This document shows positions 38,214 through 48,827 of a stretch of DNA of 64,000 bases, in pieces. The position numbers and the translations under genes are program-made. Positions within the stretch are counted from its first letter, which is position 1. Every line of letters begins with the position of its first letter. Location of the stretch: contig NZ_CP115920.1 of NCBI RefSeq assembly GCF_040412085.2, positions 1,116,001-1,180,000 of the forward strand, written 5' to 3'. Source of the DNA: Vibrio sp. CB1-14 (GTDB lineage: Bacteria; Pseudomonadota; Gammaproteobacteria; Enterobacterales; Vibrionaceae). The notes under the pieces are model-generated. The model had not been told where the DNA came from. It was given only the letters and a program-made list of their open reading frames with translations, and did no database searches.

Positions 38214-38643
38214 GAGTCGCTAACCTCTTGCGTTATGAGTTTGTGTATCCGTTTGTTTACGTAGCACACTAGCAATCTGGAAGTTAAATTGTGAACAATT
38301 TAATTGTGAGCAATTATTGCTGCTGAGTGCTTGCATGACTTTATGGTGATGAGCTCTTTCGCATCATTGATTTCTGATTTATCGATAAAAAAAATGTTGC
38401 AGTTGTGACTGCTAAGCGCAAGTTATGTATTGCAGATGCAAATCGTTTTCAATTACCTTCTCATTAAGGTTAACTTGATCCAGATTAAAAAATTAGACTA
38501 AGCGTGCTGTAAAATTTGTATGTAAGTAGACACATCGTGTCGCCAATACTTTGCATCTTAGAACGCCGAGAATACCGTCATTTCAAATCTCTTGGATGCG
38601 ACAAGATAGCCCTGTTACAACATTAGGACTTAAGGTTTCGTTT
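38214..38643. other. divergent regulatory region, GST gene and Nik-like operon
   Basis: 430 bp with no convincing gene. A Fur-like 15-mer lies at 38437-38451. No NikR-type GTATGA-N16-TCATAC operator was found. Confidence 0.5.
38437..38451. promoter_or_regulatory. Fur-like box upstream of the Nik-like operon
   Basis: The minus-strand sequence TGAAAACGATTTGCA matches the 7-1-7 Fur consensus TGATAAT-N-ATTATCA at 11 of 14 positions. It is about 190 bp before the binding-protein start codon. It suggests iron control of the operon. Confidence 0.45.
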
Positions 38644-40230
38644 ATGCCATTAAAAAAATTTATCACCGTTAGCGCGGTCGTCATATCCGCCATTCTCCCG
38701 ATTCAAAGTACGCATGCTCAGGAAAGCACTCTGACGCTGGCAAACTATCGAGATATTCGTGACCTTAACCCACATCTGTACGGTGGTGAGATTTTCGCGC
38801 AAAACCTGATTTTTGAGGGTTTGGTTCACCTCGGTGAAAATGGTGTCTTAGAGCCATGGTTGGCGACAAGCTGGAGTACGTCCGAAGACGGCAAAATCTA
38901 TACCTTTAAACTACGAGACGACGTGACGTTTTCTGACGGTACTAAGTTTGATGCTAGTGTTGTTAAAGCAAACTTTGATGCTTTGCTGGATAACGCAAAC
39001 CGTCACACTTGGTTGGAATCTATCCGCCTGATGGTAGAAGTTGAAAAGTCTGGTAAAGAGAGTGTTCGCATCGTTGACAGCAACACGGTTGAAGTTGAGT
39101 TTGCTGAGTCCTACTACCCATTTCTCGTTGAACTCGGTGTGACACGTCCGTTCCGTTTTCTTTCTCCGAAATGCTTCAAAGATGGCGCGACGAAAAACGG
39201 AACTAGCTGTTATGTGGGAACAGGTAGCTACGTCCTAACAGATAACGTGGTCGATCAGCGTGCGACGTTTGAACGCAACGCAAATTACTGGGGTCAGATA
39301 CCTCAAGTTGACAAGATCATCGCGAAAGTGATTCCTGACAACCAATCACGCTTGCTGTCACTGCGCAGTGGGGAAGTGGATATGGTTTACGGCCTGCAAT
39401 TAATCAGCGCGCAATCATTCAAGCAATTTGAGAAAGATCCGCGCTTTGGTACGACGCTTTCAGAGCCTGTTTCGACCCGAATGCTGATTCTGAATTCGAC
39501 CAGAGAAAATCTAAGTGATACCCGAGTACGTCAAGCGCTTACTCATCTAACCAACAAAGCGATCATTGCCGAACGTATCATGCTAGGTTTGGAAAAGCCG
39601 GCCGACACGCTATTGGCAAACAACGTTCCTTACGCAGATATCGACTTGACACCGTATCAGTATGACGTTGCACAAGCCGAGAAGCTGTTGGATGAAGCTG
39701 GTTGGAAGAAAGATGGCAAAGTACGCAAGCTAAACGGCAAGCCTTTCGAGATTACACTTTCCTACGACAGTGACAAAGTTGTGGAACGCACGATTGCACA
39801 GTATTTGCAAAGTGAATGGTCTAAAGTGGGCTTGAAAATGAAACTCGTTGGTGAGGAAGAGCAGGCTCACCGTGATCGTTTGAAACATGGTGACTTTGAT
39901 CTTTCGTTCAATATCTCTTGGGGTACCCCTTATGATCCGCAGTCTTTTCTTGGCGGTATGCGTAAACCCGTTTACGGTGACTATGAAGCGCAACAAGGTA
40001 TCCCTGAGAAACAAGAGATCGATAGTCGCATCCTTGAAGCACTAGAGTCAATTGACGAGACAGAACGTCAATCCCATTACAGCTACGTACTAAAAACGCT
40101 GCATGAGCAAGCAATCTACATTCCAATCAGTTATGAACAAAACCGCACCATTTTCAACAAACGTGTAGAAGGCGTCAGCTTTAATCCGTCTCAGTTTGAG
40201 ATTCCGTTACAACGCATGTCTGTTAAGTAA
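38644..40230 (+). CDS. NikA-like periplasmic binding protein of a peptide/nickel-family ABC importer
   Basis: The protein has 528 residues from the ATG at 38644, which gives a clean signal peptide (SAVVISAILPIQSTHAQ). It is an SBP_bac_5 protein clearly related to E. coli NikA: LTLANYRDIRDLNPHLYGGE, SWGTPYDPQSFLGGMRKP and LHEQAIYIPISYE. The tryptophan region of NikA is kept (SWGTPYDP), but the position of its nickel-binding His416 (SHAD, recalled from E. coli) appears to be Tyr (VYGD). The ligand may therefore be a different metal complex. First gene of a six-gene operon; a terminator hairpin follows. Confidence 0.82.
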   Translation: MPLKKFITVSAVVISAILPIQSTHAQESTLTLANYRDIRDLNPHLYGGEIFAQNLIFEGLVHLGENGVLEPWLATSWSTSEDGKIYTFKLRDDVTFSDGTKFDASVVKANFDALLDNANRHTWLESIRLMVEVEKSGKESVRIVDSNTVEVEFAESYYPFLVELGVTRPFRFLSPKCFKDGATKNGTSCYVGTGSYVLTDNVVDQRATFERNANYWGQIPQVDKIIAKVIPDNQSRLLSLRSGEVDMVYGLQLISAQSFKQFEKDPRFGTTLSEPVSTRMLILNSTRENLSDTRVRQALTHLTNKAIIAERIMLGLEKPADTLLANNVPYADIDLTPYQYDVAQAEKLLDEAGWKKDGKVRKLNGKPFEITLSYDSDKVVERTIAQYLQSEWSKVGLKMKLVGEEEQAHRDRLKHGDFDLSFNISWGTPYDPQSFLGGMRKPVYGDYEAQQGIPEKQEIDSRILEALESIDETERQSHYSYVLKTLHEQAIYIPISYEQNRTIFNKRVEGVSFNPSQFEIPLQRMSVK

Positions 40231-40270
40231 CCTTATTGCTAAAGCGACTTAACCCGTTACACCTGTGACG

Positions 40271-40303
40271 ACTGACACTCAGATTTGAGTGTCAGTCTTT
40301 TTG
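40271..40303 (+). terminator. intrinsic terminator/attenuator after the NikA-like gene
   Basis: A perfect 11-bp stem ACTGACACTCA/TGAGTGTCAGT is followed by CTTTTTGTTTT, between the binding-protein and permease genes. It would let the binding protein be made in excess over the membrane parts. Confidence 0.8.
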
Positions 40304-40337
40304 TTTTCTGATTAACCAAAGTCGAGAAAGTATCTGC

Positions 40338-41282
40338 ATGGCAAAATACATATTAAAGCGGCTACTAAGTGCAATTGTGACACTTTTCTTTGTCTCGTTT
40401 ATCGCGTTTGCTTTAGTCAATATCATCCCCGCAGACCCTGCGGAAGTCGCATTGCGAGTGAATGATACGACACCAAGTCCTGAAGCGATTGAAGAAATTC
40501 GCTTAGAGCTTGGCTTGGATAAACCCTTTCTAGTTCGTTATGTAAATTGGTTAGGGGCATCATTACAAGGCGATTTTGGCGCATCCTACACCAATACTAA
40601 CCGTTTAGTTTCTGACGAACTCGCTCGTAGCTTTCCACACACGTTAAAGCTAGCTGGACTGTCATTGATCTTGTTGGTGTGTGTGAGTATTCCAATGGGT
40701 GTGCTAAGTGCTGTTTACAAAGACCATTGGTTTGATCGTATTGTACGTGTGTTCATTTTTGCCAGCACAGCAATGCCAAACTTTTGGCTTGCATTCATTT
40801 TGATTTGGTTGTTCTCGATTTACATGTACTGGCTACCCAGTAGCGGTGCGTCGACATTTAGTCATTTTATTTTACCTTCGATTACCTTGTGTATGGCGTA
40901 TGTGGCGACGTATATCCGCCTAATCCGAAATTCAATGTTGGATTCAATGAATCACAACTATGTGGTCTACGCACGAGCCCGAGGGATTGCTGAGTATCGT
41001 GTAGTTTGGAAGCATCTTCTCAAAAATTCTTTGCAAACCTCTATGACGGCACTGGGTATCGGAGTCGTACGACTTATCGCCGGGACAGTGGTGATAGAGA
41101 GTATTTTTGCGATTCCCGGCTTGGGCAGGCTTGCGTTAGCCGCCATTTTTAATCGTGATTATCCAATTATTCAGGCGTACATATTAGCGATGGGTAGCTT
41201 ATTTGTTGTCTCTAATTTGCTCATCGATATATTACATACCGTCGTAGACCCTCGTTTGAAGTCAGGAGGTAAACACCAATGA
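40338..41282 (+). CDS. NikB-like ABC permease
   Basis: The 314-residue permease of the DppB/NikB family has six membrane segments, FVSFIAFALVNIIPADPAEVAL near the N-terminus and the EAA-type loop with YVVYARARGIAEYRVVWKH. It ends in TVVDPRLKSG, typical of the family. It overlaps the next permease by 4 bp. Confidence 0.88.
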   Translation: MAKYILKRLLSAIVTLFFVSFIAFALVNIIPADPAEVALRVNDTTPSPEAIEEIRLELGLDKPFLVRYVNWLGASLQGDFGASYTNTNRLVSDELARSFPHTLKLAGLSLILLVCVSIPMGVLSAVYKDHWFDRIVRVFIFASTAMPNFWLAFILIWLFSIYMYWLPSSGASTFSHFILPSITLCMAYVATYIRLIRNSMLDSMNHNYVVYARARGIAEYRVVWKHLLKNSLQTSMTALGIGVVRLIAGTVVIESIFAIPGLGRLALAAIFNRDYPIIQAYILAMGSLFVVSNLLIDILHTVVDPRLKSGGKHQ

Positions 41283-42103
41283 TGCAACGTCTCTTGGGCA
41301 ACAAGACGGTGATCGTTTGTTTGCTTATTCTCTCCGTCATTTGTTTGATGGGGGCATTTGCGCCGTTTATTGCACCGCATGACCCAAACTTAGCGGATGT
41401 CATTAATACACTCATGCCTATGTCGGCAGAGTATCCGCTTGGTACCGACCATCTAGGTCGCTGTGTTTACTCACGTCTACTGTTTGGTGTGCGTACGACC
41501 CTTTATTACTCCTTATTAACCATGATTATCACGGCATTTGTCGGTGGTTTCATTGGCGTTGTTTCGGGGTATGTTCGAGGAAAGGTCGATGCAGTCATCA
41601 TGCGCGGCTGTGAAGTTATGCTGTCGTTTCCGTATGAAATTATCGTATTGAGCATTGTTGGTATTATGGGACCCGGCATTACCAACATCATTGTAGCGAA
41701 CTTCATTGCCAAAATTGCATGGTATGTGCGCATCGTTCGCAGCTCAGTCATCTCATTCAACCATCAAAATTACATTCTGTATTCGAGAACGGTAAAAACA
41801 CCGCAAAGCTTTGTTTTCCGTAAGCACTTAGCACCTAACGTTGCTGCTGAAGTCATCATTCTTGCAACCTTGGATCTAGGGTGGATCATTTTAAGTATTT
41901 CAACCCTGTCTTTCTTGGGGCTTGGTATTCAGCCACCAACACCAGAATGGGGAGCGATGCTTAGTGATGCAAAAGAGGTTTTGTTCTCAAACCCCGAGCA
42001 AATGCTGATTCCCGGCGCAGCGATTATGGTGGTGGTTGCGTGTTGTAACTTGCTGGGGGACTCGCTTAGAGACGTGTTAGACCCAAAAACGGAGCAGCGT
42101 TGA
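41279..42103 (+). CDS. NikC-like ABC permease
   Basis: The 274-residue DppC/NikC-type permease has FAPFIAPHDPNLADV and YPLGTDHLGRCVYSRLLFGVRT as family signatures, an EAA-like loop, and SFLGLGIQPPTPEWGAMLSDAK near the C-terminus. AGGAGG lies upstream of the ATG at 41279. It overlaps the previous gene by 4 bp and the next by 1 bp. Confidence 0.88.
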   Translation: MMQRLLGNKTVIVCLLILSVICLMGAFAPFIAPHDPNLADVINTLMPMSAEYPLGTDHLGRCVYSRLLFGVRTTLYYSLLTMIITAFVGGFIGVVSGYVRGKVDAVIMRGCEVMLSFPYEIIVLSIVGIMGPGITNIIVANFIAKIAWYVRIVRSSVISFNHQNYILYSRTVKTPQSFVFRKHLAPNVAAEVIILATLDLGWIILSISTLSFLGLGIQPPTPEWGAMLSDAKEVLFSNPEQMLIPGAAIMVVVACCNLLGDSLRDVLDPKTEQR

Positions 42104-42912
42104 TGTTAGAACTAAACAATCTTACCGTCGCAATTGAGAGACCAGTACATCGAGAGTTGGTTTCCAATGTGAGTTTTACCCTCAAAGAAGATCAGTGCTT
42201 AGGTATTTTAGGTGAGTCAGGTAGTGGCAAGAGTCTAACCTGCAACGCGATTAACGGCTTGTTGGGTGAGCAGTTCTCTATTGCTGGTGAAGCAAAATTT
42301 GATGACCAAGATCTATTCACCATGACACCAAAACAGCGTCGTCAAATGCGTGGAGAGACAATTTCGATGATCATGCAAAGTCCAATGACGGCCTTCAATC
42401 CACTATTCACCATCGGCAATCAGGCGATTGAGACGATTCAGCAGCATTCGGCTATGAGTCGTAAAGAAGCTACGGAGTTGTTCTGCGATGTGTTAACTCG
42501 AGTGAACCTAAAGTCTGTTCAATCTTTGCTGAAAAAGTATCCCCATGAGCTCAGTGGCGGAATGTTGCAACGTATCATGGTAGCGCTTGCCTTAGTGTTA
42601 AAACCTAAGTTGATCATTGCCGATGAACCGACAACGGCCATTGACTACATTTCTCAACGTGAAGTGATCAAAGAGTTGCAATTTGTTCGTGAACAATTTG
42701 GTACCAGCCTCATTTTTGTCAGTCATGATTTGAGTTTAGTGTCGCACATCGCTGATAACGTTATGGTGATGAATCAAGGAAGAGTGGTGGAGTATGGTGA
42801 TACTAAGCAAGTATTTACTCACCCACAAAGTGAGCATACTCGTTACTTAGTTGATACGCGCATGGCATTAATTAATCGCTTTAAGTCAGTAATGGAGAGT
42901 CAGCCATGTTGA
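42103..42912 (+). CDS. NikD-like ABC ATP-binding protein
   Basis: The protein has 269 residues from the ATG at 42103 (TGATG overlap with the upstream stop; GGAG upstream). Walker A is GESGSGKS, signature LSGGMLQRIMVALAL, Walker B LIIADEPTTAID, switch VSHD. It is the first of two ATPases in the importer, as in NikD/DppD, and overlaps the next gene by 7 bp. Confidence 0.9.
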   Translation: MLELNNLTVAIERPVHRELVSNVSFTLKEDQCLGILGESGSGKSLTCNAINGLLGEQFSIAGEAKFDDQDLFTMTPKQRRQMRGETISMIMQSPMTAFNPLFTIGNQAIETIQQHSAMSRKEATELFCDVLTRVNLKSVQSLLKKYPHELSGGMLQRIMVALALVLKPKLIIADEPTTAIDYISQREVIKELQFVREQFGTSLIFVSHDLSLVSHIADNVMVMNQGRVVEYGDTKQVFTHPQSEHTRYLVDTRMALINRFKSVMESQPC

Positions 42913-43688
42913 TTGATGTTCAAAATGTCACCAAGGCTTTTAAAAGCGATGATAGTTGGTTGTTCTCGAGTTATCAGCAGGTGCTTAACGGCGTCTCGAT
43001 CACGGTGAATGAAGGGGAATGTGTTGGTATAGTCGGTGAGTCGGGCAGTGGGAAAAGTACGCTAGGTAAAGTCCTTCTGGGCTTGGAAATAGCGGACAGT
43101 GGTGAGGTAGTGTTGGGGCAAGCCATTGAAGGCTTGCCAACCCACAAAGCCATCAGTGTGGTTTTTCAAGATTACAATACGTCAGTGAATCCGCGCTTGA
43201 CGGTTCGGGAAATCATTAATGAACCCCTAATAACAGAGAGCATAAGCAAAGCACAGCGCGAAGCTATGCTCGTGGAACTCCTCGAAGAAGTCGGGCTTAA
43301 GCCTGAAATGCTAGACCGTTATCCTCATCAGCTTAGTGGCGGGCAACTGCAACGAGTGTGTATTGCTCGCGCTATTGCACCCAATCCAAAGTTTATCTTA
43401 CTCGATGAGGCGGTAAGTTCGCTTGACGTTTCCGTCCAGGTTCAAATACTCGATCTTCTACAGAAGCTAAAGAAACAACGCAATATTTCCTATTTGTTTA
43501 TTACCCACGATATTGCTGTCGCGAGCTTTCTATGTGATCGCCTGATGTTTTTTAAAGGTGGACGAATTGTTGAGCATGTTGAGGACATGCGTGACTTAAA
43601 ACACGTTCGAGACCCCTACACCAAAGAATTACTGGAAGCGGCAGGATATCTAGAGATCCCTTTTGAAGCTGAGATGAATCAACAATGA
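42906..43688 (+). CDS. NikE-like ABC ATP-binding protein
   Basis: The 260-residue second ATPase has Walker A GESGSGKST, Q-loop VVFQDYNTSVNPRLTVREII, signature LSGGQLQRVCIARAI, Walker B FILLDEAVSSLD and switch ITHD. Its last four bases overlap the start codon of the MATE gene, so the exporter is translationally coupled to the importer. Confidence 0.9.
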   Translation: MLIDVQNVTKAFKSDDSWLFSSYQQVLNGVSITVNEGECVGIVGESGSGKSTLGKVLLGLEIADSGEVVLGQAIEGLPTHKAISVVFQDYNTSVNPRLTVREIINEPLITESISKAQREAMLVELLEEVGLKPEMLDRYPHQLSGGQLQRVCIARAIAPNPKFILLDEAVSSLDVSVQVQILDLLQKLKKQRNISYLFITHDIAVASFLCDRLMFFKGGRIVEHVEDMRDLKHVRDPYTKELLEAAGYLEIPFEAEMNQQ

Positions 43689-44989
43689 ATTTGACACATA
43701 AAGACTATTTTAAGATTGCATTCCCATTTATTGTGTCGACGGTCACCCAGCCTCTATTGGGAGCGGTTGATACAGCGGTCATTGGTAAGTTAGGTGTTGC
43801 AGAGCTTATTGGTGGCGTAGCCATCGGAACGGTCATCATGAACACGTTATATTGGTTGTTTGGTTTTTTCCGAGTGAGTACGACAGGTCAAAGCGCTATT
43901 GCTCTGGGCAAAAACAATCAAACAGAGCAAGCTAGCAGTTTATTACGTCCCTTGGTGCTCGCATTATTTGTGGGTTTGAGCTTTGTTTTTATGCAGTCTT
44001 TGATTTGGCTCGGGGCTGAGTGGGTCATTTCCCCAGAGCCGGTCGTTGGAGAGAATGCCAAGATCTATTTTGACATTATGATCTACGGCGCTCCTTTCGT
44101 TCTGCTTAACTACACCATCATCGGATGGTTAATGGGTCAGGCGAAAGCGAAGGAGACCTTGTTCACCCAAGTATTTGGCAACGTGCTAAACATTATTTTA
44201 GATCTGGTGTTTGTACTCTACTTTGATATGGGGATAGCGGGAGTCGCTATTGCCACTCTTATTGCTCAAATCACCACCTTTGTTATTGGTGCTGTCCTCG
44301 TTCTCAAAACGTGCCAGTTCTCGCTGCTTGACTACGTTCGCACCACAAAAATGTCGCGTAAGGATCTGAGTGTCATTGTTTTCTCAAACCTTGATTTGTT
44401 GCTCCGCACGGTCTGCATACTGGTGTTTTTTAACATGATGGCTCGTGTTGGTTCACAGTTGGGAGCCGATGTACTGGCAGCGAATGCAATATTGATGCAA
44501 GTCACCTTCATTGCCAGCTACTTGTTTGACGGCGTGGCGAATGCATCCAGTGTTTTTGCCGGCAAGTCTGTGGGACAAAAAAATCCCCAACTGCTTAGCC
44601 GTGTTATCAAACTGAATGTCCAGTGGACTACTGGCTTTGTCATTGTATTATCGCTACTTTTGGTCGTGTTTAAACAGCAGTTGGTGATGCTCTTCACCAC
44701 TCTACCAGAACTAGTTGAGATCTATTCAACAATGAGCCCGTGGCTCATTGTGTTCCCGCTGGTGGCAGGCTACGGACTGACTTTTTATGGCATTTTCACT
44801 GGAACAGGGACGACTAGACCGGTGCGCAATTCAACTTTCGCGACACTGTTGGTCTTTTTAATTGTTCAGTTTGTTGGTGTTCGGTACTGGGGCAATCACG
44901 GACTATGGCTGGCTTTTACACTGTTTTATTTGGGACGCTTCATTTTTCTCTATCCATATATGAATCAAGTAAAACAAAAGTGCCAATAA
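43685..44989 (+). CDS. MATE family efflux transporter (DinF-like), coupled to the Nik-like importer
   Basis: The 434-residue membrane protein has 12 predicted segments in two MATE halves: PFIVSTVTQPLLGAVDTAVIGKLG at the N-terminus and FDGVANASSVFAGKSVGQKN in the middle match the family. MATE proteins export organic cations, drugs or metabolites using H+ or Na+. An ATGA overlap ties it to the ATPase gene upstream. The context suggests it exports something linked to the imported ligand, for example a metal chelator, but no biosynthetic gene is present nearby. Confidence 0.85.
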   Translation: MNLTHKDYFKIAFPFIVSTVTQPLLGAVDTAVIGKLGVAELIGGVAIGTVIMNTLYWLFGFFRVSTTGQSAIALGKNNQTEQASSLLRPLVLALFVGLSFVFMQSLIWLGAEWVISPEPVVGENAKIYFDIMIYGAPFVLLNYTIIGWLMGQAKAKETLFTQVFGNVLNIILDLVFVLYFDMGIAGVAIATLIAQITTFVIGAVLVLKTCQFSLLDYVRTTKMSRKDLSVIVFSNLDLLLRTVCILVFFNMMARVGSQLGADVLAANAILMQVTFIASYLFDGVANASSVFAGKSVGQKNPQLLSRVIKLNVQWTTGFVIVLSLLLVVFKQQLVMLFTTLPELVEIYSTMSPWLIVFPLVAGYGLTFYGIFTGTGTTRPVRNSTFATLLVFLIVQFVGVRYWGNHGLWLAFTLFYLGRFIFLYPYMNQVKQKCQ

Positions 44990-45144: not shown

Positions 45145-46815
45145 TTATCGCTCTCTGTGTCGAGATTCTATTACCTTTAAGCCAGCCAGCATGGATACCG
45201 TTACAGAAACGACCACTAATGCCATCGCCATTGCTAAGCTGGTGTTGCCCTGGTCAAACTCACTAAAAATAAAGGTTGCGCTGGTTTCAAAGCCGGGCGG
45301 TTTCACCATGAGAGAGCCAACCAATTCACGTTGACCGATGATAAAACTCATTGCCCAGCCTGCTATTACCCCGGGTAGAATTAGTGGCAGTGTAACTCGA
45401 CTAAATCGATAGAATTCAGAAGCACCTGATACCTTAGCAGCATCGTCAAGACTGCTGCTGATTTGCTCTGCAGCCGACTTTACATACTGCACTGTATAGG
45501 GAAGGAACAGAACAACATACGTGATGATCAGCATCCCTTTGGTGTTGTAAAGAGGAAAGGGGTTACTTGGTGAGTTCCAGAATAGAATCAAACCAAAGAC
45601 AACAACGATCCCCGGCACCGTATTGGACAATAAGCTCGCAAAGTCGATGACTTTCGTTAGGTGGGATTGTCCACACACCACCGTCAATCCATACCAAATC
45701 CCGAGTGCAGTACAGATGGTCGCGGCATATAGACTAAGCTGAATACTATTTAGCAACGCGGAAAACGCCTCGCTGTCGAAGCTAAAGACTTGCGCGAAGT
45801 GTCTAAAGGTTAAGTTATCCCAGCTAAGTCCAAATCCCGCTAAATCGATGAGTGCGGTGGCGGTTATTGAGAAATAGGGAATACCAATTGATAACGCAAG
45901 TATAAAAGCGATGACCAACCAACAAGCGCTGCGTTGCCAAGGCGATAACGCAATAATTCTTAGTTTGTTCCCCTTGCCCGAAATGAGCTGGTATTGGTAA
46001 TTGTTCGAGATATAGAGCTGTCCCATCCACATCAACATACTTGTTGTTAGCAAGACCAAAGAGAGCACCGATGCTTTTACGAAATCTATCGGCCAAGTCG
46101 AGGTAAAGCGGTGGATTTCCGTTGTCAGCACGTAATAGCCTATCTGCTTACCCAAAGTTGCTGGCGTGCCGAATTCTGAAATTGTTTTGACGAATACCAG
46201 TAATGCCCCCATTAGGTAGCCTGAAATCAACAGCGGCAAGAAAACTTTGACCAGGATTCTTAGCTTGGATGCACCATATATGATTGCCGCTTCTTCAACA
46301 CTAGCATTGATTCTCAACAAGCTATTTTTGATAACTAAGTACATGAATGGGAAAAGCGACAGGCTCATTATTAACACCATGCCAGCCAATGAGAAGAAGC
46401 CAGTCTGTAATCCCGCCAAGCCAGGTAATAACTGCTCTAGATAACCCCTCGGGCGCATAAAAATCATCCACCCCATAGAGTCGATAAACGGTGGAGTCAT
46501 GAATGGGATCAAGATGACGATATCTAGCCATTTATGGTGACCGATCTCTGTTTTAGCTGTAATCCATGCCAAAGGGGCTGCAAACAATGTTGCAACGATG
46601 GTGACTAAAAAAGCGAGTTGAATAGAGTTCCAAAGCACACCGAGTGTGTAGCTATCAACAAGTTGTCGAAATAAAGATGTCAGGTGCCAATGCCCATCTT
46701 GGTAGGCGCTATTGATAAGAATCGTACCCATTGGCATTAGCACTAAGATAATGAGGCTTAGCAACGCCAATAACGTGGGTTTATTGAATGTATCTTGGGA
46801 TTGGAGTGTGTTCAT
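45145..46815 (-). CDS. Fe3+-type ABC transporter permease, fused double permease (FbpB/SfuB family)
   Basis: The 556-residue protein has about 12 membrane segments in two homologous permease halves, each with an EAA-type loop (EEAAIYGASKLRILVKVFLPLL in the first, LDDAAKVSGASEFYRFSRVTLP in the second). This double layout is shared by ferric iron, AEP-phosphonate and some polyamine-like systems. It is last in a three-gene operon behind an attenuator hairpin. Confidence 0.85.
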   Translation of the reverse strand: MNTLQSQDTFNKPTLLALLSLIILVLMPMGTILINSAYQDGHWHLTSLFRQLVDSYTLGVLWNSIQLAFLVTIVATLFAAPLAWITAKTEIGHHKWLDIVILIPFMTPPFIDSMGWMIFMRPRGYLEQLLPGLAGLQTGFFSLAGMVLIMSLSLFPFMYLVIKNSLLRINASVEEAAIIYGASKLRILVKVFLPLLISGYLMGALLVFVKTISEFGTPATLGKQIGYYVLTTEIHRFTSTWPIDFVKASVLSLVLLTTSMLMWMGQLYISNNYQYQLISGKGNKLRIIALSPWQRSACWLVIAFILALSIGIPYFSITATALIDLAGFGLSWDNLTFRHFAQVFSFDSEAFSALLNSIQLSLYAATICTALGIWYGLTVVCGQSHLTKVIDFASLLSNTVPGIVVVFGLILFWNSPSNPFPLYNTKGMLIITYVVLFLPYTVQYVKSAAEQISSSLDDAAKVSGASEFYRFSRVTLPLILPGVIAGWAMSFIIGQRELVGSLMVKPPGFETSATFIFSEFDQGNTSLAMAMALVVVSVTVSMLAGLKVIESRHRER

Positions 46816-46844
46816 AGAGATCTGATATAAAGCGAGGCGGCGGT

Positions 46845-46869
46845 AAAAGAGGAGAGGTTAACCCTCTCC
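46845..46869 (-). terminator. intrinsic terminator/attenuator after the iron-type binding protein gene
   Basis: The stem GGAGAGG/CCTCTCC (46851-46869) is followed on the minus strand by TCTTTT. It sits between the binding-protein stop and the permease start, as in the other two ABC operons of this window. Confidence 0.6.
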
Positions 46870-46879
46870 TTGAGGTGGG

Positions 46880-47842
46880 TTAGCGAAACATCGCGCTAAA
46901 CTTCTTAGTGACGTTTGCTTGATTTTCAAACATCCAATTCCAGTCATAATCCAGTTGCTTAATCTCAGCGTAGTCTGGGCGAGATGGATCCGCTTTTACA
47001 TCACTACGACCAGGTAGCAGCAAGTTCTTAGCAACAATGTTCTGTGCACGTTCAGTCAGCAGGTAGTTAACAAATACCTCTGCTTGTGGTTTATTTTCGC
47101 TAGATTCAAGCACCATGACTGGTCTTGGTGCGATTACAGTGCCCTCAGCCGGGTAGATAACCTGGATTGGATTTCCTTTGGCCTTTTCGCCGTATCCCAT
47201 GTAATCGACGCCAGCCAGTACGACACTTTTCGAGCCATTAACCACTTGGTTCAGTGCCGGACGGTTTGCACCATTAACATCGATATCGTTTTCTTGCCAT
47301 GCATTGAATAGTGTCCATGCTTTGTCCGCATCATTAGCTATGACACCAGAGATAAAATCCAAAGCAGAGCCTGATTCAGTTGGGTCAGGAATAACGACTT
47401 GTCCTGCCCAGTTGTCTTCAGTGTAAGTTGTGAGTGATGCTGGGGCATCTTTCACCAGACGGGTATTGTAGGTAATCCCTAAAGCCGAGCCTGAATACGC
47501 GAACAGCTGATTGTTACCATTCCATCCATCATGCAGTTTATCTGCGTTTTCTGGAGTAAAGGTATGTAAAAGCCCTTCGCTCTGAAGACCCATTGCCGCT
47601 GGCCAAGAGGCTAAAATAACCACATCTGCGACCGGGCGAGCTTCTTCCGCTTTTAATCGTCCCAAGATTCGTCCAGTCGTTGCTTGGTAGACTTGAACTT
47701 TGTTGCCCGAGACTTTTTCAAAGTCTTTTATTAGCTGGTTTGCTAGTCCTTTAGGGCCTGCGGTATAGAGCGTGAGATCTGCAGCGGCAACCGCGCCCGA
47801 CACAAGTCCAAGGGCGAGAGCTAGTACGGATAGGTTTTTCAT
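46880..47842 (-). CDS. Fe3+-type ABC transporter substrate-binding protein
   Basis: The protein has 320 residues from the third of three consecutive ATGs (47842), the one best spaced from AAGG. A signal peptide (SVLALALGLVSGAVAAA) is followed by LTLYTAGPKGLANQLIKDFE, the FbpA/thiamine-type SBP fold, then VQVYQATTGRILGRLKAEEA and GVDYMGYGEKAKGNPIQVIYPAEG. The tandem Tyr-Tyr iron pair of FbpA is not present in the same form (VDYMGY here), so the ligand could be ferric iron or another small anion complex. Confidence 0.8.
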   Translation of the reverse strand: MKNLSVLALALGLVSGAVAAADLTLYTAGPKGLANQLIKDFEKVSGNKVQVYQATTGRILGRLKAEEARPVADVVILASWPAAMGLQSEGLLHTFTPENADKLHDGWNGNNQLFAYSGSALGITYNTRLVKDAPASLTTYTEDNWAGQVVIPDPTESGSALDFISGVIANDADKAWTLFNAWQENDIDVNGANRPALNQVVNGSKSVVLAGVDYMGYGEKAKGNPIQVIYPAEGTVIAPRPVMVLESSENKPQAEVFVNYLLTERAQNIVAKNLLLPGRSDVKADPSRPDYAEIKQLDYDWNWMFENQANVTKKFSAMFR

Positions 47843-47852
47843 CATCATTTCC

Positions 47853-48827
47853 TTATAAGTGAATTCTTTGAATATCTTCAGGGGCGCAATAAAGAGATAT
47901 TACTTCTCCAGGGGTCGGTCGCTGTGATGCGAAGAAGTGCCACTTCTCTCCTGCAACATTGGCCTCAACGAGATAGTGCTGCCCTTGGAATCGAGCGTTG
48001 ATAATCGAACCTTCAAACTGCAAATCATTGTCATTGGCAGCAGCATGAGGTTTCAGCTTTTCCATGCGGATAAAGGCATGGCCTTGAGGGCTAGGAAGAC
48101 GATTGCTCTTCCCTATAAACTGAGCGACAAATTCTGACTTAGGATGGTGATAAATCGCCTCCGGTGAGTCGAACTGTTCAACTTGACCAGCATTCATGAT
48201 GACCACTTTATCTGCCATAGACATAGCCTCTGCCTGGTCGTGTGTGACATAGACAGCGGTCAATTGGTTATCTTTGAGGATTTGTAGCAATAGGTGCTGA
48301 ATCTGATCTTTAAGAACTGCATCAAGCGCTGAAAGTGGTTCATCAAGCAGAATCAGTTGTGGTTTGGTAACTATGGCTCTCGCGATAGAAACGCGCTGTT
48401 GCTGACCGCCAGAGAGCTGGCTTGGAAATCGTTTAGCGAACGAGGCTAACTGAACTTGTGCCAGTGCATCGTTTACTCGCTTATCCAGATCTTTGGTGTC
48501 TTTTCGTGCACGTAGGCCAAATGCAATATTCTCATAGACAGTAAGGTGTGGCCAAAGCGCGAAGTCTTGAAACACCATTCCAAGCTTTCGATCTTGAATA
48601 GCGATAGATTCATTCAACTCACCGTCGAAAACACTACGCTCATTGATTTTAATTTGTCCTGAAGAAGGGTGCTCTAATCCTGCTATGGATCGGAGTAATG
48701 TCGTTTTTCCGCATCCAGACGGCCCAACGAGTGCGGCCAATTCACCTTGATTTAAAGATAGATTGATGTCGCGAAGCGCACTAACGTCACCGAAGCTTTT
48801 ATTGAGGTTTTTAATCGAAAGGCTCAT
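47853..48827 (-). CDS. Fe3+-type ABC transporter ATP-binding protein (FbpC/PotA family)
   Basis: The 324-residue ATPase has Walker A GPSGCGKTT, Q-loop GMVFQDFALWPHLTVYENIAFG, signature LSGGQQQRVSIARAI, Walker B LILLDEPLSALD and switch THD, plus a C-terminal TOBE-like domain (residues ~235-324). It is first in the operon, 10 bp before the binding-protein gene. A weak Fur-like sequence lies 23 bp upstream of the start codon. Confidence 0.88.
   Translation of the reverse strand: MSLSIKNLNKSFGDVSALRDINLSLNQGELAALVGPSGCGKTTLLRSIAGLEHPSSGQIKINERSVFDGELNESIAIQDRKLGMVFQDFALWPHLTVYENIAFGLRARKDTKDLDKRVNDALAQVQLASFAKRFPSQLSGGQQQRVSIARAIVTKPQLILLDEPLSALDAVLKDQIQHLLLQILKDNQLTAVYVTHDQAEAMSMADKVVIMNAGQVEQFDSPEAIYHHPKSEFVAQFIGKSNRLPSPQGHAFIRMEKLKPHAAANDNDLQFEGSIINARFQGQHYLVEANVAGEKWHFFASQRPTPGEVISLYCAPEDIQRIHL

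Follow-up and report, generated by a model that had tools for sequence, protein, structure and literature searches.

MbnE is the family-5 binding protein of methanobactin import. For E. coli NikA, the extract of PMC11091072 used here describes a bound tricarboxylate and, for its own case, possible fates of the ligand after entry of the chelate; the pocket contacts compared below are taken from the same extract. In the C. difficile study PMC6311696, the portion used numbers the MATE gene CD630_28740 next to fhuCGBD and describes it as iron- and fur-responsive, with log2 changes of 2.42 (low iron) and 4.12 (fur mutant), the columns being assigned by a cut table head. A passage of PMC5511505 names a 'nickel transporter' gene group induced in a fur mutant. 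The literature that we searched, with most subscription journals outside the search, held no description of a nikABCDE–MATE unit.

We analysed such a unit in a 64,000-nt stretch of Vibrio sp. CB1-14 (contig NZ_CP115920.1), referred to as the window. Six genes run head to tail in the order nikA, nikB, nikC, nikD, nikE, MATE (38644..44989, +; Table 1), which we read, with a probability of a little under one half (about 0.48), as a unit for metal-chelate import and ligand disposal, the metal most likely being ferric iron. The gene run and its overlaps of 4 bp (nikB/nikC), 1 bp (nikC/nikD), 7 bp (nikD/nikE) and 4 bp (nikE/MATE) are as given in the initial annotation. The translational coupling proposed there fits the overlaps from nikB through MATE; nikA is not coupled to the rest, because the 107 bp gap between nikA and nikB holds a strong terminator-like hairpin (−20.6 kcal/mol, z −4.28; as stable in 0/200 shuffles). 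NikA of the window matches PF00496, the family-5 binding protein model, and passes TIGR02294, NCBI's NikA model (593.9 bits, cut-off 393). The nikD product scores 332 bits with the CntF and CntD models and 288 bits with the NikD model, in each case below the cut-off.

Table 1 Features of the operon and its upstream region in the window
Feature	Coordinates	Strand	Remarks
Fur-like site of the initial annotation (TGCAAATCGTTTTCA)	38437..38451	+	10/14 positions of 7-1-7 consensus
nikA-like family-5 binding protein	38644..40230	+	528 aa from ATG 38644; signal peptide by eye
Terminator-like hairpin between nikA and nikB	40270..40297	+	12 pairs, then TTTTTG
nikB-like permease	40338..41282	+	NF045469, 415.9 bits, cut-off 380
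nikC-like permease	41279..42103	+	NF045473, 358.2 bits, cut-off 350
nikD-like ATPase	42103..42912	+	start ATG 42103; program's frame begins at TTG 42100
nikE-like ATPase	42906..43688	+	TIGR02769, 262.6 bits, below cut-off 332.55
MATE exporter	43685..44989	+	434 aa; PF01554; TIGR00797, 218.6 bits, cut-off 147.4

The binding protein is NikA-like and carries the SWGTPYDP motif, as first described. An ungapped alignment to solved NikA pairs PSHADF of E. coli with PVYGDY of the window and, with the numbering checked, puts Tyr444 at the position of His416, which supports the proposed loss of the His ligand. A second pocket switch, Tyr382 (E. coli numbering) to Arg, had been missed earlier. Both switches mark a clade of 74 sampled NikA proteins (SH-aLRT 100), in which residue 416 is Tyr in 70 rows, Trp in 1 and His in 3; Arg382 is found in 72/74 clade rows vs 0/23 rows outside, and Arg97, Trp100, Arg137, Trp398 and Tyr402 (E. 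coli numbering) are kept in 74/74. The tree was built by a short search, carries a long-branch warning and leaves out 12 of 109 rows (L211, L213, L110_15, L075_5 and eight Gilliamella rows, all eight of which are Tyr416/Arg382). Gilliamella wkB178 (L072) has the MATE gene yet combines His416 with Ser382. An even draw of 274 Gammaproteobacteria genomes gave no further NikA residues, because NikA scored over the cut-off only in the window's own genome (G000). PDB 9pl3 was considered as a solved member of the clade and rejected; it scores below NikA of 4oer, and a search for this code turned up only unrelated papers.

The exporter had been called DinF-like. Its MATE assignment stands (TIGR00797, PF01554), and DinF orthology is not supported: DinF is the closest NCBIfam model (NF007690), with 249.3 of the 409 bits needed, and the MATE tree, which omits eleven loci and carries a long-branch warning, places 12 DinF rows in a group of their own (SH-aLRT 99), apart from the 37 importer-side MATE rows (SH-aLRT 92). 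The Bacilli MATE rows L210 and L211 belong to neither group. With the MATE alignment as query, 8000 candidate proteins were scored, and names were obtained for the best 120, gene context not included.

Conservation of the MATE gene beside the importer, on which the initial annotation was staked, was found in related genomes: by clustering, the window-type MATE is present in 30/85 loci on 29 contigs (L040 and L075 being one), and record titles assign the loci in which it comes after nikE to six phyla. The locus sample, the best 80 of 116 loci matching two peptide patterns of the NikA clade, is not an even one. The pairing also occurs on plasmids of Bacilli; among the plasmid matches, those examined were 19 of the 32 from the NikA search and 3 of the 30 from the MATE search (H16 and H42 are one plasmid). 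In a MATE-centred draw of 100 genomes including the window's own, 19 loci had at least 64% identity, 3 of them beside nikABCDE; of the other 16, 14 directly adjoin a different family-5 importer, 1 has such an importer within 3 kb and 1 stands alone. A 245-genome draw round Geosporobacter gave the MATE in 3 genomes (the centre and two others), each time in a family-5 importer operon. Where nikABCDE is absent, the window-type MATE of relatives usually sits within another family-5 ABC importer operon. The importer lacks a MATE gene behind it in V. cincinnatiensis, Brenneria, Pectobacterium, Samsonia and others. In relatives from gut anaerobes, LysR regulation together with an AstE/AspA deacylase is a frequent alternative. 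Neither MATE nor AspA was scored in 12/77 loci, L066 among these although its MATE was seen, and on the NikA tree the presence of MATE must have changed 12 times or more. In the residue, NikA-tree and promoter counts, the labels MATE, AspA and LysR refer to genes at any position within the locus.

The initial annotation placed an 11/14 Fur-consensus match at the operon start; on recount the site reaches only 10/14. As a 19-mer it scores 12/19, a level equalled by 107/200 shuffles and thus no better than chance, and it is absent from the window's five Fur-consensus matches with ≤3 mismatches. The idea of iron control, to which the window's own site lends no support, is backed by relatives with near-perfect Fur boxes: scores of 16–18/19, with no shuffle as good, were obtained for G005, G021, Agarivorans, V. 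cincinnatiensis, Geosporobacter and four Gilliamella loci. A first test took 36 chosen nikA promoters, a later one all nikA promoters with 200 bp upstream. A Fur 19-mer of at least 15/19 precedes nikA in 16/28 promoters of MATE loci without LysR or AspA and in 1/34 promoters of LysR loci; the other 12/28 stay below 15/19, including G064 (12/19, 184/200 shuffles as good). Among promoters of other MATE operons, only 2/16 reach this level. Because of the Fur boxes in relatives, we consider ferric iron the most likely metal. In Agarivorans, the operon adjoins a hydroxamate-type NIS siderophore cluster, which we take as iron context only, since the cluster has its own receptor, FhuCDB-like and MFS genes. 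No dedicated synthase was seen by eye next to the operon, be it that of the window, of G005 or of G021, in agreement with the earlier statement that no biosynthetic gene lies nearby, and no outer-membrane receptor was seen by eye beside the Vibrio operons. PF10100 (opine metallophore synthesis) had 0 matches in the window's genome, a result that the control genomes likewise gave.

Since the window's genome encodes urease, nickel is retained as a candidate metal. The operon could be an ordinary nickel importer that takes up Ni-chelates such as Ni-(L-His)2 for urease, with Tyr replacing His at no change of metal and the MATE gene a multidrug pump co-transcribed by chance. The TIGR02294 score speaks for this, as do the urease genes (182–193 bits) in 5/16 genomes tested (the window's genome, G005, G021, G064 and Agarivorans; for Gilliamella, urease was sought in a genome other than those with the best Fur boxes). 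Nevertheless, we judge it unlikely, given the loss of His416 and the gain of Arg. NikR has no match in the window's genome (profile cut-off 175 bits) and exceeds the cut-off in 0/16 genomes, with matches below it in G375 (161 bits) and G374 (93 bits), but G049, which has more E. coli-like NikAs, is likewise without NikR. The earlier statement that a NikR operator is absent agrees with this: operator-like matches in the window are near chance (33 vs 24.5 expected, a level reached by 4 shuffles), one of them, with 3 mismatches, lying upstream of nikA at 38333-38360. Further against a nickel importer, locus sequences were examined for 11 NikA rows that have His416 and lie outside the clade, and in 10 of these the examined stretch contains no MATE (L041, L212, L215, L216, L218, L219, L221, L223, L225, L227); the remaining one (L073_3) immediately precedes a separate nik–MATE operon. 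V. cincinnatiensis and Pectobacterium, both without a MATE gene behind the importer, have strong Fur boxes and no urease match in their genomes, and a HupE/UreJ-like gene was seen by eye in 4/5 urease clusters, with none seen in that of G064.

Alternatively, the MATE protein might export an endogenous chelator such as citrate, whose ferric complex NikABCDE would retrieve. Such a shuttle needs no synthase and would suit both the Arg-rich pocket and the tricarboxylate bound by E. coli NikA; the best solved relative of the window MATE is barley HvAACT1 (E 3.5e-18), a citrate exporter. This relation is distant, however, with other MATEs close behind, and the AspA-type hydrolases of relatives are ill-suited to citrate, so that we regard a shuttle as distinctly improbable. 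Equally hard to favour is a non-metal system that imports an organic nutrient (peptide-, opine- or N-acyl-like) and exports a product: the LysR and AstE/AspA deacylase genes of relatives look catabolic and family-5 binding proteins include many peptide binders, but the MATE branch has Fur boxes and the metal-chelate pocket of NikA is kept.

For the preferred reading, chelate import with ligand disposal, we infer the following course. Periplasmic NikA would bind a polycarboxylate-type metal chelate, with Arg97, Arg137, the newly acquired Arg382 and an aromatic wall of Trp100, Trp398 and Tyr402 holding its carboxylates; the metal would face Tyr, or no ligand at all, in place of the His416 of E. 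coli NikA. After import of the complex by NikBCDE, the metal would come free in the cytoplasm. The co-translated MATE protein would then export the emptied ligand, which is thereby recycled or kept from accumulating; in relatives, the stripped ligand may be removed by hydrolysis instead. The ligand probably does not derive from dedicated linked genes; it may be a foreign chelator or an ordinary metabolite. Against this reading we count the MATE cargo, which is not readable from sequence, the chance-level Fur site of the window, the promoters of MATE loci and of other MATE operons that stay below 15/19, the urease genes (with no HupE/UreJ-like gene seen by eye in the G064 cluster), the importers without MATE, L072, the repeated changes in MATE presence and the Vibrio operons beside which no outer-membrane receptor was seen.

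A broader reading, which we advance as a doubtful generalization, would make import–strip–dispose units a widespread class, in which NikA-like importers that have lost His and acquired Arg come with one disposal route or with two: export by a dedicated MATE, frequently accompanied by Fur boxes, and hydrolysis by an AstE/AspA-type deacylase, in most cases accompanied by LysR. A single MATE subfamily would serve three or more architectures of family-5 importer. The window's strain, which is without IucA/IucC siderophore synthetase, would then use the chelators of others and send them out again. Model-based annotation would name the window's NikA a nickel transporter; if iron chelates are what the clade transports, those names would be wrong, and so would any nickel requirement deduced from them. 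The fate of the ligand after metal-chelate entry becomes directly testable through the co-translated exporter, or through the hydrolase in relatives.

Compared with E. coli NikABCDE, the operon keeps the nikABCDE order, the TIGR02294 match and Arg97, Trp100, Arg137, Trp398 and Tyr402, but differs in His416 to Tyr, Tyr382 to Arg, the lack of a NikR match in the genome, the appended MATE gene and relatives with Fur boxes. The likeness to metallophore systems noted initially extends to an importer and exporter in one operon, as in staphylopine CntA-F/CntE, and to position 416, where CntA likewise has a residue other than His (the S. epidermidis row L224 has Thr). It does not extend to kinship: Cnt has cntKLM and an MFS gene beside cntA and a different pocket, and a Cnt-type system was rejected because the window reaches 485.9 of the 800 bits needed for the CntA model, also misses the CntC cut-off and has a MATE in place of the MFS exporter CntE. 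The exporter class is indeed different, but MATE precedents exist. The methanobactin system likewise joins a family-5 binding protein to a MATE exporter (MbnM, so named by NCBIfam), whose model NF045578 the window MATE matches with only 22.1 bits (cut-off 285). In C. difficile, the importer beside CD630_28740 is not of family 5, and the likeness noted is one of gene context: by its number, a MATE gene stands next to a ferric-siderophore ABC importer.

The genome of the window comprises three contigs with 5.54 Mb in total. Its nikA, nikB, nikC, nikD, nikE and MATE genes run head to tail, with overlaps of 4, 1, 7 and 4 bp between successive genes from nikB to the MATE gene, in line with the initial annotation. 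nikA and nikB are spaced by 107 bp, and the strong terminator-like hairpin inside this gap may lead to a surplus of binding protein over the other components. An ABC importer (fused permease, binding protein, ATPase) neighbouring the operon looks, by eye, like a ferric-iron or 2-aminoethylphosphonate type. Matches resembling a NikR operator, such as the one listed, occur at approximately chance rate in the window.

Features of the operon and its surroundings (positions in the window)
Feature	Position	Context	Property
nikA	38644-40230	first of six head-to-tail genes	
terminator-like hairpin	40270-40297	nikA/nikB gap	-20.6 kcal/mol, z -4.28
MATE gene	43685-44989	last of six head-to-tail genes, after nikB, nikC, nikD, nikE	
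NikR-operator-like match	38333-38360	upstream of nikA	3 mismatches
ABC importer	45145-48827 (-)	convergent with MATE gene	

Of the 60 other genomes drawn from the genus, two have a close nikA (G005, 88%; G021, 81%). G064, from another family, carries one nikA (51%), and G049 carries two more distant ones (39–40%) without MATE. The six-gene order is repeated in G005, G021 and G064 between differing flanks. Clustering revealed the window-type MATE in 30 of 85 loci (29 contigs); beyond the genomes just named, these show 68% identity in Agarivorans and 40–48% in Gilliamella, Campylobacterales, Solidesulfovibrio, Geosporobacter, Anaerovirgula, a Clostridiaceae MAG, Cetobacterium, a Leptotrichiaceae MAG, C. 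citroniae and Brachyspira. The nikE–MATE spacing ranges from an overlap to a gap of 42 bases in the loci measured. Four Clostridia loci (L070, L073, L076, L077) carry genes for a sensor histidine kinase and an AraC-type response regulator after the operon (families checked in L070). In two Brenneria loci with the MATE missing (L051, L060), a Cache-domain chemoreceptor gene follows (family checked in one), and in L051 a further chemoreceptor gene precedes the operon.

With 593.9 bits, the window NikA passes the cut-off of the NCBI NikA model (393), and it stays below the cut-off of the CntA model (485.9 of 800 bits). According to PMC11091072, the E. coli NikA pocket around Ni-AMA contains Tyr22, Met27, Trp100, Tyr382, Trp398 and Tyr402, while Arg97, Arg137 and Ser415 bond the carboxylates and His416 bonds the metal. 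The window protein retains Tyr22, Arg97, Trp100, Arg137, Trp398 and Tyr402 and replaces His416 by Tyr, Tyr382 by Arg, Met27 by Ile and Ser415 by Val. The loss of His416 noticed initially is borne out by the alignment to solved NikA, ungapped around the site, which places Tyr444 at this position. Fe-EDTA is held in NikA through Arg97, Arg137 and Trp398 (PMC7312458) and does not engage His416 (PMC11091072), so that the residues kept here can hold a His-independent chelate.

We calculated a NikA tree by a short search from 97 of 109 rows, with NikAs of plasmid records added; the underlying contig scan used four NikA sequences, retained the best 80 of 116 loci and is uneven in sampling, as two clade motifs were used to draw the loci. 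The window NikA falls within a 74-row clade (SH-aLRT 100), in which Tyr22, Arg97, Trp100, Arg137, Trp398 and Tyr402 are each present in 74/74 rows and position 416 holds Tyr in 70 rows, Trp in 1 and His in 3 (L045, L067, L072). Arg382 occurs in 72/74 clade rows compared to 0/23 rows outside, where 13/23 have His at 416. Two of the three His416 clade rows also lack Arg382 (Thr and Ser instead), a hint from sequence that the changes at 416 and 382 may be a coupled switch; the third, L045, retains Arg382. By record titles, the clade spans Vibrio, Agarivorans, Gilliamella, Brenneria, Pectobacterium, Campylobacterales, Clostridia, Fusobacteriota, Brachyspira, Synergistaceae, Sutterella and a SAR324 MAG; the Solidesulfovibrio MAG locus (L066) is absent from the tree. 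In Gilliamella sp. Pra-s52 (L050 8221-11545), a tandem pair of nikA precedes nikB, one with Trp at 416.

For 10 of the 11 His416 NikA rows outside the clade that have locus sequence, no MATE lies in the fetched stretch; the eleventh (L073_3) is just upstream of a separate nik–MATE operon. In several such loci, nikR or a TonB receptor adjoins. Within the clade, L072 combines His416 with MATE. The tandem nik operons of Anaerovirgula multivorans (L073 4651-16218) comprise one with a His416 NikA without its own MATE, followed by one with a Tyr416 NikA and MATE. Plasmids of Peribacillus, Priestia and Cytobacillus show the nikABCDE–MATE order with another NikA pocket, in which 416 is Phe or Tyr and Arg97 is lost.

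We further determined the partners of the MATE itself. In a draw of 100 genomes including the window's, 19 loci with at least 64% identity were obtained: nikABCDE is beside 3 and another family-5 importer directly beside 14, in 13 of which the permease is fused or present as pieces of the fusion; of the remaining two, G008 has an importer within 3 kb and G007 none in 18 kb. Among 245 genomes drawn round Geosporobacter (E 1e-40), the MATE occurs in 3 (the centre and two others), in each case within a family-5 importer operon; among 369 Gammaproteobacteria (E 1e-85), it occurs in no genome but the window's own. The MATE tree separates a group of 12 DinF rows (SH-aLRT 99) from one of 37 importer-linked rows (SH-aLRT 92); two Bacilli rows fall outside both, and importer partners are intermixed within Vibrio. 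Context counts and mixed partners together indicate that the MATE swaps importers and is seldom seen without one. The second MATE operon of the window's genome (L163, G000:C1:1274100-1280476) lies ~113 kb away; besides the MATE, it encodes two ATPases, a lipoprotein of family 5 and a 578-aa permease resembling NikB fused to NikC. The same layout is seen again in the Vibrio genomes examined, in two of which the MATE frame is split into two pieces (L177, G059 C41; L178, G039 C92). Two Clostridia loci (L241, L242) show a third architecture of MATE, NikB-like and NikC-like proteins, a family-5 binding protein and two ATPases.

In related loci, clustering identified an AstE/AspA-type protein in 35 and a LysR gene in 34. 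These deacylases match PF24827 (two proteins run against Pfam), and their only NCBIfam match is DoeB, far under cut-off (three proteins run). The 77 loci with sufficient downstream sequence divide into MATE only (28, including L066 and, with another MATE type, L101), AspA only (26), both (11) and neither (12). Among the 11 with both, seven carry an other-clade MATE after AspA (one partial), one a third type and three the window type. The repeated recruitment of MATEs and hydrolase next to the same importer suggests one common need, the removal of something imported. We favour import of a metal chelate by NikABCDE, the emptied ligand of which would be removed by the MATE or, in relatives, by the hydrolase.

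The Fur-like box proposed at the operon start in the window matches at chance level. All nikA promoters with 200 bp upstream were scored by the same method, and 15/19 or more was reached by 16/28 in loci that have MATE but neither LysR nor AspA, 5/15 in loci lacking all three (one a NikA outside the clade), 1/6 with AspA alone, 0/2 with MATE and AspA, and 1/34 with LysR. The top score, 18/19 in Gilliamella, was equalled by 0/300 shuffles (four loci tested); further Gilliamella nikA promoters have weaker matches. As a control, 5/170 other ORF starts in ten of the scored loci reach 15: by position, two in nikA's own intergenic stretch, two at Agarivorans siderophore genes and one within a nik operon. 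In the other MATE operons, 2/16 promoters and 1/196 control starts reach this score. From these counts by locus class, there seem to be two regulatory regimes, MATE with Fur boxes and deacylase with LysR.

As the candidate metal, iron is ahead of nickel. Iron is favoured by the Fur boxes, by Tyr416, Tyr being a common ferric ligand, and by Agarivorans, where nikABCDE–MATE adjoins a hydroxamate-type siderophore cluster that has IucA/IucC and a receptor and, judged by eye, genes resembling FhuCDB and an N-hydroxylase. In Agarivorans sp. Toyoura001 (L043, L236), this NIS cluster includes a 914-aa protein that seems, by eye, to be an IucA/IucC synthetase fused to an acetyltransferase. For nickel count urease matches of 182–193 bits in G000, G005, G021, G064 and Agarivorans among 16 genomes tested; three Clostridia gave weak matches (24–28 bits). 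By eye, 4/5 clear urease clusters contain a HupE/UreJ-like gene, that of G064 being without one; the clusters L248, L249, L250 and L252, in genomes that also have nikABCDE–MATE, combine such a gene with a urea-type ABC importer. Against nickel count NikR, above cut-off in 0/16 genomes with two matches under it, and urease, without match in the tested genomes of V. cincinnatiensis, Gilliamella mensalis (a genome other than those with the top Fur boxes), Campylobacterales, Brenneria, Pectobacterium, Cetobacterium and Brachyspira.

IucA/IucC gave no match in the window's genome; the staphylopine dehydrogenase search gave none there and none in its own controls. As initially noted, no dedicated synthase is seen by eye beside the operon. 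On the simplest reading, the ligand is made by other organisms or is a common metabolite. The literature searches brought up no description of this NikA clade or of the nikABCDE–MATE pairing. PMC2667541 bases its NikA prediction on His416 and other residues and lists ten organisms that have nickel transporters, in most cases NikABCDE, yet no known nickel proteins. PMC6311696 reports a C. difficile MATE gene that responds to iron and fur and is numbered beside a siderophore importer. The likeness to metallophore systems drawn in the initial annotation would concern function and not membership: compared to the Cnt and methanobactin systems, the operon would work like a metallophore import/export unit and is, by the tests made, a member of neither.
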